Assembly (NCBI GenBank): GCA_903882805.1
Contig: CAIRYK010000003.1
Location: 20,769-84,768 of the forward strand
Origin: an uncultured Bacteroidota bacterium
Lineage (GTDB): Bacteria > Bacteroidota > Bacteroidia > Chitinophagales > Chitinophagaceae
Reading direction: 5' to 3'
DNA length: 64,000 bases
The position numbers and the translations under genes are program-made. Under the pieces are notes generated by a model, which saw only the letters and a list, made by a program, of their open reading frames with translations, was not told the DNA's origin and made no database searches. Below are positions 56,145 to 62,937 of the stretch, piece after piece. How positions within the stretch are numbered: the first letter of the stretch is position 1; each line of letters opens with the position of its first letter.

Positions 56145-58559
56145 GTGGAAAAGAAACCATCGGCTATAGCAAGTATTGATTCCAAATTGGATTCGTCGCT
56201 TGGTGAAATATCTAGGAATATGGAAGGTACTGTCTACGGTTATAGAACCGATGACAATGACACCTTGGTTGCCGACTACCCGTTGCTGCCATCGACAAGA
56301 AAATTCTGGAACAAAATGTTGCAGGTGATAGACACCGCCGGAACTTCAGGGCAGCTTAGAAATCAGCTTCGTATTATAGACGACAGCTTAAAGTCAGTTG
56401 CTGAATTGGAAATAGGTCAAATTGTTCCTGCCGATTTTATCTTTAACCAGAATCAAACACAGTTAATACAATCAGGGCTACTGCTAAATGAGACCAGTAC
56501 ATTGATTCAGGAACGCAAAGCAAAAGGCGGTGATTCAACTTTAGAAGGAAGAATATTAAGTGCTGTTTTTCTACTGGATAAATTAACAACTGACATACCC
56601 AACACCGGCCTCAAATGCAATGAGCAGTTTATTGCTGATTTACTTATTGACAACCTGAATACCAGTTCCGATACCTTCCGGTCAAAGATTAAGACCCTGA
56701 TCAAAAAGCTGATTGAAGAGAAAGTATTGATGCCGATCAGCGATGAGTATAAATTGCAGACTAAAATTGGCCAGGAATGGGAACAAGAGTTTACGAAACA
56801 ATATGTAAAACTCAACAATTCAGGTGATGACCAAATTCAAGGGCTAAGAAAGACTAAAATACTCTCCTTTTTTAAGGATAAAACAAAGGGGATTGTAGTA
56901 ACCCAAGGTATTGCCAAGCAGGGACGGGAATTTGAATTGTGGGATAAGGAGACCCTACCTAATACTGAACATAAATTAAACGTTTGGATAAGAGATGGCT
57001 GGTTTGAAAATGAGAATACCGTGCTTAATGAGATAAGAGCAGCCGGTAGTGATACTCCATTAGCGTATGTTTTCGTTAAGAAATTCAGAGACCCGGAACT
57101 GCGAACTGAAATACTAAAGTTCCTGGCTGCCGGGTTAACGCTTGATGCTAAAGGGCTTCCATCTACACAGGATGGAGAGAAGGCGAAGAAGAGCATGGAG
57201 ACCCGACAAGCAAATGCCAAAACAGAAATCGAGGCATTGATTGAAAAAATATGCTCTGAATCATTGGTTTATTATGCCGGAGGAAACAGCGTACAAAAAG
57301 GAGCAATAAAGGAAAACATTGAGGAAGTGTTAAGCGGTATCGCTGACAGGCAGTTTCCTGACTATAAAAGCAAGGCTGATTTCGCTAACTGGGGGCAAGT
57401 TTTAAATAAGGCTATAGCAGGTAATCCTGATGCGCTGAATGCAATACATTTTATGGGAGATGTGGCTACGCACCCTGTTGCTACCGAAATTCTGCGCTTT
57501 ATCGGCAATTCGACAAAGCAGGGTAAAGAAATACGCAATCATTTCTGGAAATCACCGTATGGCTGGAGCCAGGATGCTATAGATGCGATTTTGATACTGC
57601 TGAAGAATACGCAACACATATCTACCAGCGAACCTAACCTGATCGTTAGCCGGATAAATAATGCAACCTTCAAAAAGGAAATACACATTTTAGGTGTAAA
57701 GGATAAATTGAGCATTAAAGGCTTGTTCCAAAAAGCAGGTATCTCTTGCCCACCAAATCAGGAGATTTTCCCTTTCTCTAACATGTTTTTAGAGAAGCTG
57801 AAAACGCTTGCATTACAGGTGGGTGGAGATGCACCAAGACCAGATCCGATAAAAATTGATTTCATAAAAGATATAGAGAATAAGGAGGGCAATGAACGGC
57901 TGCTGGATATTCTTGAACAACAAACTGCATTACAAGCCGCATATGACGAATGGAGCGCAAAAGCTACGCTGGTAAGCACTCGTGAACCTTTATGGGATTT
58001 GCTGATTGAATTGACTAACCATGCGCCTGATGATGCGGATTTCGACCAGTTTAAAGACGAGGTAAAAGCTATTCGCGAGAATAGGTTATTGCTTCAGGAG
58101 CCAGACCCAATTCAGCCCAAACTGAATGATATTTCAGATAAGCTGAAAACACTTTTAAACAAGCTGAAGGAAAATTACATTAAGGAATACGATGAAAAAA
58201 TGGCGGAATTACAAGCCAACCAGTATTTCGCAAAACTGACACCGGAACAGAAACATCATATTTTAGGCAAACATCAGCTATTGGCAAAACCGGAGCTGAA
58301 ACCTTTAGATGCGCAGGCTCTTTCTTATCAGTTGCAGAAATTGCCGCTTTATGGATGGGACACCAAGATCGCTGCATTGAGTGGGCAATTTCATTCTGCG
58401 GTAGATGAAGCCATTACTTTATCTGCGCCCAAAGCCAAGACGTTTAATATACCCCGTAGAACAATTACCAATCAGGTAGAAATTGATGCGTATGTTGCTG
58501 AATTAAAAACCGAATTAGAGAATTTGCTTAAAGAATCCAGTTCCATCATATTGAGATAA
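56145..58559 (+). pseudogene. brxC: BREX protein BrxC, N-terminally truncated
   Basis: An ORF of 804 residues from a GTG, matching the C-terminal two thirds of BrxC, the large P-loop ATPase-like protein of BREX phage defence. Matching stretches are VADYPLLPSTRKFWNKML, TAGTSGQLRNQLRIIDDSL, IVPADFIFNQN and ILSAVFLLDKL. Full-length BrxC is about 1200 residues; the missing front carries the Walker A motif, and no P-loop is found here. Similarity runs right back to the junction with the truncated mazF (about 56130), so the gene lost its front and any upstream brxA/brxB. It is probably non-functional. The next gene starts 9 bp downstream. Confidence 0.75.
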
Positions 58560-58568
58560 ATAAAACTA

Positions 58569-59690
58569 ATGAGTAACGTATCGACAACTATGGTGCAGTA
58601 TAGCGAATTGCTTAACGAAATTAAATTGCATATTCGCTCTGCTCATGCAAAGGCGGCACTGGCGGTTAATTCCGCCATGATACAGCTATATTGGAATATG
58701 GGCAAGATGATTGCAAACAATCAGGCTTTATTTGAAGGCAGAAACAATTATGTGGAACAGCTTGCAAACGATTTGCGAACTGAGTTCCCGGATATGAAAG
58801 GGTTTTCGCGGTCTAACCTTTTTTATATCCGTAAGTTTTATCAATTTTATTCAGTTCGGCAGGCTGCTGAACTGAATAAAATTCTATTACAAAATAGTGA
58901 ACTCTCAGTCCAGCAAGTTGCTGGACTGAGTCCAACCGATGAAATTTCAGTGCAGCAAGTTGTTGCACTAAATAAGGAAATAGTCAGTGTTCCCTGGGGG
59001 CATCACATGATTTTATTAGATAAAACAAAGGCAATAGACGAAGCCATGTTTTATTTACAGCAGATCATTGAACATAATTGGAGCCGCACAATCCTGACAT
59101 TGCAAATTGAACAGAACTTATACGGGAGGCAGGGCAAAGCAATCACCAATTTCAATACAACCCTGCCGGAGCAACAAGCTCTATTAGCCAATCAGATATT
59201 AAAAGACCCATATAATTTTGGCTTTCTAACACTTGAAGCAAAAGTGCAGGAACTGGAAATAGAAAAACAATTAACCGAACATATCACCAAGTTTCTATTA
59301 GAACTCGGGAAGGGATTTGCCTTTATAGGTCGGCAATACCCTTTCAAAATTGGCGACAAAGATTACCGTATAGACTTGTTGTTTTATCATATCCGGCTGC
59401 GTTGTTTTGTGGTAATTGACCTTAAAACCGGAGAGTTTGAACCAGAGTTTGCTGGTAAAATGAACTTTTATCTCTCTGCCGTAGATGACCTTTTAAAAGC
59501 AGATACCGACCAGTCCTCTATAGGGATAATCTTATGTAAAAGCAAAAGCAAGCTGGAGGTGGAATATGCATTGCGGGGAATGAACAAACCCATAGGGGTA
59601 AGTGAGTTTACCCTGACGCAGGCGTTGCCAACCGAATTGAAAAGCACCTTGCCTACCATTGAAGAATTTGAAAACGAATTGAACAAATAA
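58569..59690 (+). CDS. DUF1016 / YhcG family PDDEXK nuclease
   Basis: A 373-residue protein: an N-terminal helical DNA-binding-type domain (YWNMGKMIANNQ, FSRSNLFYIRKFY), a variable linker (residues 95-135), the WGHHMILLDK and NWSRTILTLQIEQNLYGRQGKAITNF core, and a C-terminal PDDEXK nuclease domain. Acid and Lys residues lie in YRIDLLFYH and FVVIDLKTGEFEP (D-x(n)-D-x-K). The family is found in restriction and BREX-type defence loci. It sits 9 bp after brxC and 4 bp before the pglX start, so it shares their transcript. The linker contains three palindromic 27-nt units (see the repeat entry). The coding sequence appears intact. Confidence 0.85.
   Translation: MSNVSTTMVQYSELLNEIKLHIRSAHAKAALAVNSAMIQLYWNMGKMIANNQALFEGRNNYVEQLANDLRTEFPDMKGFSRSNLFYIRKFYQFYSVRQAAELNKILLQNSELSVQQVAGLSPTDEISVQQVVALNKEIVSVPWGHHMILLDKTKAIDEAMFYLQQIIEHNWSRTILTLQIEQNLYGRQGKAITNFNTTLPEQQALLANQILKDPYNFGFLTLEAKVQELEIEKQLTEHITKFLLELGKGFAFIGRQYPFKIGDKDYRIDLLFYHIRLRCFVVIDLKTGEFEPEFAGKMNFYLSAVDDLLKADTDQSSIGIILCKSKSKLEVEYALRGMNKPIGVSEFTLTQALPTELKSTLPTIEEFENELNK
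58851..58973 (+). repeat. Three in-frame palindromic 27-nt units in the DUF1016 gene
   Basis: Units start at 58851, 58905 and 58947, each in frame, encoding SVRQAAELN, SVQQVAGLS and SVQQVVALN. Each unit is a 12-bp dyad centred on one base. Unit 2 is perfect (TCAGTCCAGCAA paired with TTGCTGGACTGA); units 1 and 3 have one wobble and one wobble plus one mismatch. Arm position 6 and its partner are T-A, C-G and G-C in the three units, so changes are compensated. Spacers are 27 and 15 nt. Confidence 0.8.
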
Positions 59691-59694
59691 TACT

Positions 59695-59955
59695 ATGCCC
59701 GTACTCACCCCTCAACAAAGAAGCACACTGGAGACCGCCGTAAAGCAGGCAAGAAAAATTGCAGAAACAGGCGCAATAAATGCCCTGCATGGTCTGGCAG
59801 TGGACAATCCTGAGCCGTACCCGCATATGAAGCCGGAGCAAAGGGCATTACGTAATAGTCTGCGTAATAAAGCAAGACTGCTGGGAGATCTGCTGCCGGA
59901 AAAGGGAACACAAAACATTAAAAACCTAGCCTATGAGCTGGCTTACGAAACCTGA
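59695..59955 (+). CDS. PglX-type methyltransferase, N-terminal fragment before an in-frame TGA
   Basis: The first 86 codons of the pglX-like gene (LTPQQRSTLETAVKQARKI ... NLAYELAYET), ending in TGA (59953-59955). The next ORF continues in the same frame after TGA-CAT-AAA-ATG. In relatives this region reads AYE-x-W-H-x-M-L-F-A-x-F-L, so the TGA replaces an expected Trp codon (TGG). The fragment is a helical N-terminal piece without catalytic motifs. Confidence 0.7.
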   Translation: MPVLTPQQRSTLETAVKQARKIAETGAINALHGLAVDNPEPYPHMKPEQRALRNSLRNKARLLGDLLPEKGTQNIKNLAYELAYET

Positions 59956-59961
59956 CATAAA

Positions 59962-62937
59962 ATGTTGTTTGCCATGTTCCTTGAAGCCAACGGCTTGCTG
60001 ATGCACCCGGATGGTGTAGCGGTGACTATGGAAGACTGCGAAGAGCTGGCACGGGATGAAAAATATATAGACAAATGGGATGCTGCTGCAACGTACGCCT
60101 CTAAAATGCTCCCAGCAATTTTCAGGGTTGATGATCCTTTGATGCAGATAGCGTTCGCTACTGATGAGCGTATAAAGCTGGAGGAACTAATAGATGGTTT
60201 AGAGCGTCACATTTTTGCAGCTGACGATGCTCTCGGATGGGTCTATCAATATTGGCAAAGCGAAGCAAAAAAACAAGTTGAAGATGAGGAAAAAAGTGGT
60301 CAGAAAATTGACGGAGCCCGACTTCCGGCCAAGACTCAATTATTTACTGAACCATACATGGTTCACTTCCTAATAGACAATACAATCGGATCTTGGTGGG
60401 TTAATAACAATCCGGGAATTAAAACTCCCGTTAAATTTGAATACTTACAATTGCGTGAAGATGGTCGTCCTATTGCAGAAAAAATAGAGGGATGGCCAGA
60501 TAAAACAGCCGATATAACTGCACTCGATCCATGCATGGGGTCAGGACACTTTGTGGCGTCCTTATTTCCTGTTTTTGCAAAATTGAGAATGCATGAAGAG
60601 GACCTTACGAAAGAGGAGGCAACGGGTAAAGTTATTACTGAAAATCTGTTTGGTCTTGAGCTAGATGCCCGCTGCACACAAATAGCAGCCTTTAACCTTG
60701 CACTCACTGCATGGAAATTTTGTGGGCATTATATGGAACTACCTGAAATGAACTTGGCCTGTAGCGGAATCGCTCCAAAAGGGAAAATGGAAGATTGGGT
60801 GAAATTGGTAAGTAATGTAGACAGTGTTGACAAGGCTAGGATGGAGAATGGAATGCGTGAGTTATACAACCATTTTCAATTAGCACCCGAATTGGGGAGT
60901 CTGATAGACCCCTCTTCGATTAAAGCAGATGCATACACGGCAAATTTCGATCAACTACAGCCAATTCTTGATAGAGCTTTAAATAGTGAAGTTGATAGTG
61001 ATCAACTTGAAAGAGGTGTACTGGCTGCTGGAATAGCTAAAGCAGGGCAAATATTAGCAAAGAAATATACCCTACAAGTTACTAATGTTCCGTATTTGGG
61101 ACGAAAAAATCAAGATACAGTCTTGCTTGATTTTTGTGAAAAAAACAATCCTGACGCAAAAGTCGATTTGGCAACGGTTTTTCTTGATAAAATGCTTAAA
61201 TCAAATGTTTACGGCGGGATTTCTTGTTGCGTAATCCCTCAAAACTGGCTTTTTTTAACTTCATATAAAAAATTTCGAGAAAAGCTATTGAAAAATGAAA
61301 GTTGGACGATGGTTGCAAGACTAGGACCTAAAAGCTTTCAAACTCCTATGTGGGATTTTAATGTCATGCTTATCATTATGCAGCATAAAAGACCCGTAAA
61401 CACGCAACTAATATACGGTATAGATGTATCAGATTTTTCAAGTGCTACTGCAAAGGAAGACGCATTGAAAACCGCTGAAATTAAATCCGTAAAACAGTTA
61501 GAACAATTAAAGAATCCCGATGCAAGAATAGTAATGAGTGAAAATATCGGCGGGCATCTTTTAAGTAAGTACGCTAATTCACTTCAAGGTATCGCCACTG
61601 GAGATTATTCAAGATACGGCCGTGTCTTAGTGGAATTGCCAAATATTGATGGTTCAAATTGGGTATTTCAGCAATCCACTTTCCCTAAAAACAAACTATA
61701 TGCAGGCAAAGAAAGCGCAATATATTGGGAGAATGGTGAGGGTTCTCTTCATAGTTCAGATGGTGCAAGAATTCAGGGAAATAATGCTTGGAGAAAAAAG
61801 GGTGTAGTAGTTAGCCTAATGGGAAGTTTGCCTGTTAGCTTATACCTAGGCGAGTATTTTGACATTAGTTGTGCCTCCATAGTTCCAATAAATGAAGGCG
61901 ATATTTTAGCAGTATGGTGCTTTTGTAGTAGCCCTTCTTTTAATGAAGAAGTAAGGAAAATTGATCAAAAGTTAAATGTAACAACCGGTACATTGTCCAA
62001 AGTGCCATTTGATTTAGATTACTGGCAGCAAGTAGCTGCGGAGAAATATCCAAATGGCTTACCTAAATCGTATAGCGATGATGCCACACAATGGCTATTT
62101 CATGGAAACCCAACACTAACGGATAATCCATTACAGGTGGCAATGGCTCGCCTGCTTGGGTATCGCTGGCCTGCCGAAAGTGATACAGAAATGGAGTTGG
62201 CGGATGAAGCAAGAGAATTAATAGCCGCCATACAGCCTTTTAACAGCCATACAGATGATGATGGCATTATGTGTCTTCCTGCCATAAACGGAGAGCTACA
62301 AGCAGCTGAGCGCTGCCGGGAATTCCTGATGGCTGTATGGGGAGAAGACTGGAGCAATAGTACGCTGCAAAAACTACTGCAAAAAGAAGACGCAAAGAAA
62401 ACTACTCTGGATGAGTGGCTGCGAGATGAGTTTATTGATCAGCACAACAAGCTGTTTCAAAACCGGCCTTTTATCTGGCAGATATGGGATGGAAGAAAAG
62501 ATGGATTTTCGGCATTGGTCAACTACCACAAACTAAACAAGGAAAATTTATCTAAGCTCATATATACATACCTGGGCGATTGGATACGCATGTGCGAAGC
62601 CAAAGTGAAAGCCGGAGAAAGTGGAGCAGAAGGCTTGCGCAGTGCTGCGCTAAAGCTAAAAGAAAAGCTAGAAGCAATATTGCAAGGCGAAGCGCCCTAC
62701 GACATTTTTGTGCGCTGGAAAACCCTTGACCAACAACCAGTTGGCTGGGAGCCTGACTTAAATGATGGTGTACGCCTAAACATTCGTCCGTTTATTCTGG
62801 CTGATGTACTGCGCAAAAAGCCCAATATAAAATGGGGAGTTGACAGAGGCAAAAATCCTCCCGGCACCCCGTGGGGAACTGAACGGGATAATGACATGCA
62901 TTTGAGTTTGGAAGAGAAGGGGAAGTCAAGGAAGTGA
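59962..62937 (+). CDS. pglX: BREX-type adenine-specific DNA methyltransferase PglX, main part
   Basis: A 991-residue continuation of the preceding fragment, in frame. The methyltransferase domain has TQLFTEPYMVHFLIDNTIG, SAM-binding motif I DPCMGSGHFVASLF (about residues 190-205) and the motif IV variant VTNVPYLGRKNQ in place of NPPY, as is usual in this subfamily. A long C-terminal target-recognition and helical region follows. In BREX, PglX adds methyl groups to adenine in the host recognition sequence to mark self. An ATG 6 nt after the TGA could allow re-initiation, so the large part may still be made. It is flanked by the DUF1016 gene and an McrB-like gene. Confidence 0.78.
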   Translation: MLFAMFLEANGLLMHPDGVAVTMEDCEELARDEKYIDKWDAAATYASKMLPAIFRVDDPLMQIAFATDERIKLEELIDGLERHIFAADDALGWVYQYWQSEAKKQVEDEEKSGQKIDGARLPAKTQLFTEPYMVHFLIDNTIGSWWVNNNPGIKTPVKFEYLQLREDGRPIAEKIEGWPDKTADITALDPCMGSGHFVASLFPVFAKLRMHEEDLTKEEATGKVITENLFGLELDARCTQIAAFNLALTAWKFCGHYMELPEMNLACSGIAPKGKMEDWVKLVSNVDSVDKARMENGMRELYNHFQLAPELGSLIDPSSIKADAYTANFDQLQPILDRALNSEVDSDQLERGVLAAGIAKAGQILAKKYTLQVTNVPYLGRKNQDTVLLDFCEKNNPDAKVDLATVFLDKMLKSNVYGGISCCVIPQNWLFLTSYKKFREKLLKNESWTMVARLGPKSFQTPMWDFNVMLIIMQHKRPVNTQLIYGIDVSDFSSATAKEDALKTAEIKSVKQLEQLKNPDARIVMSENIGGHLLSKYANSLQGIATGDYSRYGRVLVELPNIDGSNWVFQQSTFPKNKLYAGKESAIYWENGEGSLHSSDGARIQGNNAWRKKGVVVSLMGSLPVSLYLGEYFDISCASIVPINEGDILAVWCFCSSPSFNEEVRKIDQKLNVTTGTLSKVPFDLDYWQQVAAEKYPNGLPKSYSDDATQWLFHGNPTLTDNPLQVAMARLLGYRWPAESDTEMELADEARELIAAIQPFNSHTDDDGIMCLPAINGELQAAERCREFLMAVWGEDWSNSTLQKLLQKEDAKKTTLDEWLRDEFIDQHNKLFQNRPFIWQIWDGRKDGFSALVNYHKLNKENLSKLIYTYLGDWIRMCEAKVKAGESGAEGLRSAALKLKEKLEAILQGEAPYDIFVRWKTLDQQPVGWEPDLNDGVRLNIRPFILADVLRKKPNIKWGVDRGKNPPGTPWGTERDNDMHLSLEEKGKSRK

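Follow-up and report, generated by a model that had tools for sequence, protein, structure and literature searches.

A predicted cognate DNA site within the coding sequence of DUF1016/YhcG nuclease genes

The genes of the DUF1016/YhcG nuclease family carry a palindromic DNA unit in their coding sequence, and because the bases of this palindrome change in step with particular residues of the encoded protein, it is very probable (we put it at roughly 85%) that the nuclease recognizes a cognate DNA site within its own gene; there are no binding, cleavage or expression data. Specifically, we propose that the protein encoded by each gene has this palindrome as its cognate site on double-stranded DNA, with a homodimer, itself an inference, reading the two half-sites and AATT serving as a constant flank. 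The first turn of a predicted helix spanning residues 81-112 would read the outer pairs 5-9 by means of residues 82, 85 and 86, and a segment around residues 142-174 would read the inner pairs 2-3. The site would thus be flanked, within the ORF, by the sequences coding for its two reading segments and, given this placement, reader and site would be inherited and evolve together.

The palindromic units of the window gene and their spread in the family

The gene on the forward strand at 58569..59690 of the window (the whole 64-kb stretch of DNA that was analyzed) was identified as a DUF1016/YhcG nuclease gene from Pfam, PADLOC and an AlphaFold model. Its product of 373 residues combines DUF1016_N with a YhcG_C PD-(D/E)XK domain, and matches to PF17761 and PF06250 (E=3e-31 and 4e-65) satisfy membership of the YhcG/DUF1016 family; the gene is also matched by PADLOC PDC-S02. 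The PD-(D/E)XK core, delineated from Pfam and the alignment, runs from Asp269 to Lys286 (59373..59426, + strand), and both D269 and K286 are invariant in an alignment of 95 sequences. BrxC-like and PglX-like genes flank the window gene. These BREX genes, at 56145-58559 and 59695-62937 of the window, appear decayed; the profile match of the BrxC ORF begins only at profile position 340, and pglX is broken by an in-frame TGA at 59953-59955. A second DUF1016 gene in the same genome (L002, C4:17422-18330), which is without the long linker, follows an hsdM-like DNA methylase gene, and on a Citrobacter plasmid (L346) a site-specific integrase gene lies directly 5' of the DUF1016 gene.

The sequence-only reading of this DNA had described three in-frame palindromic units in the window gene, and we recovered all three, with centers at 58863, 58917 and 58959 and the peptides SVRQAAELN, SVQQVAGLS and SVQQVVALN in units 1, 2 and 3, respectively; the varying pair, which it had numbered 6/20, is pair 7 as counted from the center (T-A, C-G and G-C). 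Unit 1 (27-nt core 58850-58876; arms GTT-CGGCA) lies within a dyad of 20-nt arms (58843..58883), the single mismatch of which is a G-T at pair 5. Unit 2 (58904..58930; arms GTC-CAGCA) is perfect over 13 pairs, and unit 3 (58946..58972; arms GTG-CAGCA) has mismatches at pairs 4 and 11; none of the three is assigned a strand. No further dyad with at least 11/12 pairs was found in the 64-kb window. A search for the dyad outside the gene, with a pattern covering the three units and 0-2 mismatches, gave no match elsewhere in the whole genome, the matches being confined to the window gene.

Homologues within the same taxonomic family display palindromes of different sequences at the homologous place, with unit peptides such as IVQQAVAQL, IGQQPVAQL, FGQQPVDQI, ILQVPLAKL and IWQQAVAKL, in which the residues change as base complementarity requires. 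Palindromes at that place, changing in like manner, are also present in Cyanobacteria, Planctomycetes, Proteobacteria, Elusimicrobia, Actinomycetota, Fusobacteriota and viral-contig homologues, an occurrence much wider than had earlier been reported, and yhcG of E. coli K-12 itself contains three units (palindrome AATTCGCCAGACAGTGTCTGGCGAATT). A dyad with at least 10/12 pairs was detected in 233/274 distinct DUF1016 genes as against 87/825 neighboring control ORFs, and its center coincides with the first base of a codon in 231 of these 233 strong-dyad genes, as opposed to the control ORFs, which show no phase preference. The remaining 41 genes, which fall short of this threshold, include several with incomplete N termini and others whose dyads are weaker. 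Two or more candidate units were found in 97 genes, and the per-position likeness of units is about 0.6-0.7 within a gene versus 0.35 between genes, which implies that most extra units are of the gene's own kind.

Pairing of the arms and covariation with protein residues

Conservation at the level of DNA is directly observed in a set of 222 units. Here, complementary bases are found at pairs 2 to 13 in 72-97% of the units, whereas shuffling the arms among genes gives 43-76%; pair 1 lies close to background, and from pair 14 outward the values match background or stay close to it. The same bounded profile emerged when the unit was anchored by its distance to a conserved tryptophan rather than by score. 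Redrawing codons synonymously from each gene's own usage yielded a mean of only 5.8/12 pairs compared to the observed 10.7/12, and 96% of the units beat their own synonymous null at p<0.05. The bounded profile and the synonymous null together define the unit as AATT-N8-nnn-N8'-AATT. Thus, the earlier contention that the pairing is kept while the sequence changes, and that selection on the protein alone would not suffice for this, now extends to hundreds of genes. The outcome that would have overturned it, namely palindromes resulting from codon choice only, is excluded by the synonymous redraws. We accordingly attach practically no weight to a purely codon- or protein-level effect; the unit peptide is indeed semi-conserved, but neither the deficit of pairs in the redraws nor the palindromes of one gene that persist outside the coding sequence (L208, see below) can be reconciled with it.

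The observed pairing is also strict: the 1856 cells of pairs 2-9 comprise 1769 Watson-Crick pairs, 14 G-T, 44 A-C and 29 other mismatches, and third codon positions with a partner G are occupied by C 190 times and by T 3 times. This strict Watson-Crick pairing without G-U tolerance points to selection on the DNA rather than on an mRNA hairpin. A hairpin in the coding sequence of the mRNA, either bound by the encoded protein or pacing translation, would be compatible with the strong folding of every unit as RNA (z -3.4 to -8.8); however, G-U is no commoner than A-C mismatches (14 vs 44) and is avoided at silent positions, making such a hairpin quite improbable. The site on mRNA, which had been among the roles first entertained for the units, is accordingly disfavored. 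A structured RNA element was likewise rejected, there being no tolerance of G-U pairs and no Rfam match to the palindromic units.

Each column of the alignment was compared with the bases of the arms, and the columns given here lie outside the unit's own codons. Pair 7 is tied to residue 82, with a mutual information of 0.70 (0.465 after correction, against 0.098 for the next column); residue 85 covaries with pairs 8 and 9, residue 86 with pairs 5 and 6, and residues 144, 142, 173 and 174 with the inner pairs 2 and 3. In the AlphaFold model, residues 82, 85 and 86 form the first turn of the predicted helix 81-112 and are spaced i, i+3, i+4, as in a recognition helix. The codons of this helix, as delimited by the model and the covariation, lie at 58809..58904 of the window, with the proposed base readers at 58812-58814 (residue 82) and 58821-58826 (residues 85 and 86); the second segment, which bears residues 142, 144 and 173/174, is encoded by 58992..59090 (all on the + strand). 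No relative in the PDB was available to confirm the DNA-binding mode of the DUF1016_N fold; there were no PDB relatives by sequence, and those by fold pertained only to the nuclease domain, which is NucS/EndoMS-like.

These links amount to a partly readable code. Arginine reading guanine is a classic contact, and Arg82 occurs with G at pair 7 in 109/110 training genes, as against a G there in only 14/115 other genes; in held-out genes, which share under 85% identity with every training gene, the combination recurs in 49/50. Comparable agreement is seen for Trp85 with CT (13/14 training, 17/19 held-out), Gly85 with TT (7/8 and 10/10), Tyr86 with CA (67/77 and 36/36) and Lys173 with CC (6/7 and 15/16). 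When the bases were predicted from the residue, the correct predictions among 86 numbered 67 for residue 82, 52 for residue 85, 68 for residue 86 and 65 for residue 173, versus 53, 24, 51 and 37, respectively, for a majority guess. Phylogenetic independence between the training and held-out sets is incomplete. In a sister-pair test of 111 independent, non-overlapping pairs, residue 82 was the top of all columns for pair 7 (p=1e-11), residue 86 the top column outside the unit for pairs 5-6 (4e-8), and residues 144 and 173 the top ones outside the unit for pairs 2-3 (3e-6 and 1e-5). The weakest link is that of residue 85 with pairs 8-9 (2e-4), where it was not the top column outside the unit, and pair 4 had no clear reader residue in this test. 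Of the roles first suggested for the palindromes, that of a DNA site bound by the nuclease thus gains support from covariation that is position-specific and replicated, albeit without binding data.

The same covariation bears on the idea that the palindromes have no function and that an old palindrome is merely kept perfect by template-switch correction, a process established for bacterial quasi-palindromes and by which compensatory changes are possible in a single step. Correction of this kind is contradicted by the covariation with residues about 30 codons away and fails to account for the fixed length and place across phyla or the constant AATT; hence, we consider it scarcely credible.

Returning to the recognition of an own site, residues S82, F85 and Y86 of the window protein predict the arms GTC-CA, which are those of unit 2, the perfect unit; this unit is therefore the predicted cognate site, a prediction resting on the residue-to-base correspondences alone. 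Units 1 and 3 of the window gene depart from the predicted pair 7. Arrays of units with differing pair 7-9 triplets and one shared core were observed in L010, L037 and at 58843-58972 of the window, an example being GTG, GGG, AGT and TGG, all with CAACA. Such mixed arrays are unexplained by a model with a single cognate site.

Sites beyond the unit, allelic variation and possible functions

Near-uniqueness of the site is observed in the other genomes searched: at up to 2 mismatches it is unique in two of them, and a third has one extra site with 1 mismatch. Some genes do have additional exact copies of their own arms: immediately 5' of the start in L026, L027 and L282, farther upstream in L107 and just past the stop in L006. 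A spreading fold-back element, as the sequence-only reading had considered, is disfavored by this near-confinement of exact copies to DUF1016 genes and their edges. A dispersed mobile element was rejected on the same grounds, with sites essentially limited to DUF1016 genes in the genome of the window and three others. In viral contigs we also looked for three sequences, namely the commonest site, the E. coli site and a control palindrome, and the AATT-flanked matches were mostly DUF1016 genes; a phage target was accordingly rejected, the exception being one phage tRNA cluster. In this phage contig, AATTGTGCAACAGCCTGTTGCACAAATT lies between tRNA genes near position 5052 of L470, with no DUF1016 gene nearby. 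L208 has lost its internal unit, but nearly identical palindromes (AATTCCCTAAACAGTGTCTAGGGAATT) recur roughly every 60 nt in the stretch about 76-250 nt past the gene end, suggesting that it is the site, and not the peptide, which is kept.

Sites upstream of the start are found in L026, L027, L056, L187 and L282, and are suggestive of a role as an autoregulator. We infer that the most likely function is a portable autoregulation, although we hold this only tentatively and at somewhat under even odds. In such a scheme, the bound protein would block transcription through its own gene ahead of the nuclease domain, and this could work behind any promoter at which the gene lands, be it in BREX loci, hsd operons or as a stand-alone gene. 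Autoregulation is favored by the presence of the gene behind many unrelated promoters and of a site near the promoter in some members; nevertheless, it rests on few examples, since most DUF1016 genes lack a promoter-proximal copy.

The E. coli yhcG alleles, which occupy one locus between gltD and nanQ, combine K82 with CGC arms, R82 with GTG and S82 with CTC. Between the two main allele groups, the gene flanks mostly share 95-100% identity, and in the cassette formed by the helix, the units and the following segment the core identity drops to 53-80%. The number of units ranges from one (O157) to three (K-12), the second unit of the group-2 alleles bears the arms of the other alleles' first unit, and a related site is found 27 nt past the yhcG stop in all four E. 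coli alleles checked. Hence, the suggestion of a hypervariable linker used to change specificity stands insofar as the cassette is hypervariable within E. coli, but what varies is a coupled reader and site. Several separate yhcG lesions fall inside the palindrome array at about nt 327-406 (L163, L164, L165 and L307), among them deletions of 78 bp and 80 bp and truncations at nt 406 and, beside IS1, at nt 385.

This variability raises the possibility of self-targeting or homing, wherein the palindrome, either within the nuclease's own gene or within sister alleles, would be cleaved by the nuclease and the ensuing repair would cause the units and the specificity cassette to turn over. The invariance of the catalytic residues alongside the site, the variation of unit number and specificity among E. 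coli alleles whose cassette flanks are 98-100% identical, the arms that the group-2 second unit has in common with the first unit of other alleles, and the several deletions and breaks in the array are all consistent with it. However, with its cognate site left intact, every allele would be exposed to self-cleavage, for which there are no data, and palindromes are prone to deletion even without a dedicated nuclease. The homing-endonuclease criterion of a site absent or disrupted in the gene-bearing allele is not met, the intact site lying inside the gene. We regard self-targeting as unlikely without dismissing it. More doubtful still, though likewise in contention, is a sink or license, in which the gene-borne site holds the nuclease inactive until loss or degradation of the DNA releases it in a defense or addiction role. 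The near-uniqueness of the cognate site in the genome, the conserved active site and the presence of family members in BREX and hsd loci and among candidate defense genes would fit, but the proposal is purely inferential and one site per genome would hold few molecules.

Comparison with known systems

An earlier account of the YhcG family (COG4804, PF06250) predicted the C-terminal nuclease and found no known relation for the N-terminal domain (PMC1189080); that half was left without a function and the DNA site went unnoticed there. A layout resembling that inferred for the DUF1016 genes is seen in phage lambda O, which binds, via its amino-terminal half, sites inside its own coding sequence (PMC4488673). 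For DUF1016, placement of the binding site within the binder's own gene is inferred from the strong covariation of residues and site bases. Lambda O, however, is unrelated and initiates replication, and its ori-lambda iterons are four repeats of 19 bp in a single phage, whereas the DUF1016 proteins are PD-(D/E)XK nucleases without a known origin function, and their genes, with the 27-nt dyad, come from many phyla. Nor are the lambda O-like criteria of homology to O and an adjacent helicase-loader gene met by the window gene, with its DUF1016 and PD-(D/E)XK domains and its BrxC and PglX neighbors. The Rickettsia palindromic elements, which are mobile repeats about 100-150 nt long that have dispersed to numerous loci (PMC4316617), are likewise palindromic DNA read in frame inside genes. 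Unlike them, the DUF1016 palindrome is restricted to one homologous place in one family and is not dispersed, and the RPE/REP-like criterion of many dispersed copies was not met in the genomes searched.

Our literature search found no report linking DUF1016/YhcG to a palindromic site of its own, or describing a self-borne site in a nuclease family. A self-borne cognate site in a nuclease family thus appears to be new, though less so if the lambda O layout alone is taken to define the kind. It is conceivable, if not something we would assert, that these genes represent a bacteria-wide class of nucleases with their own gene as target, for which binding or cutting of that gene is the working principle, either self-limiting or self-licensing; specificity in such a class would shift by coupled change of the reader residues and the site. 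The YhcG/DUF1016 proteins occur in E. coli K-12 and many phyla, often in BREX and type I restriction loci, and their function is unknown. The family-wide site, along with the partly readable residue-to-base code, renders them directly testable as DNA-binding nucleases and offers a natural library of matched protein-site pairs for studies of recognition. They also present a rare case of one DNA stretch apparently selected both as the code for a protein and as the binding site of that protein. A further parallel is furnished by the autoregulatory operators of restriction-modification controllers and toxin-antitoxin systems, in which a dimer binds a palindromic site near its own gene and specificity coevolves. 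Those operators are normally situated at the promoter and not in the coding sequence, whereas the DUF1016 site lies in the coding sequence, between the two parts of its putative reader.
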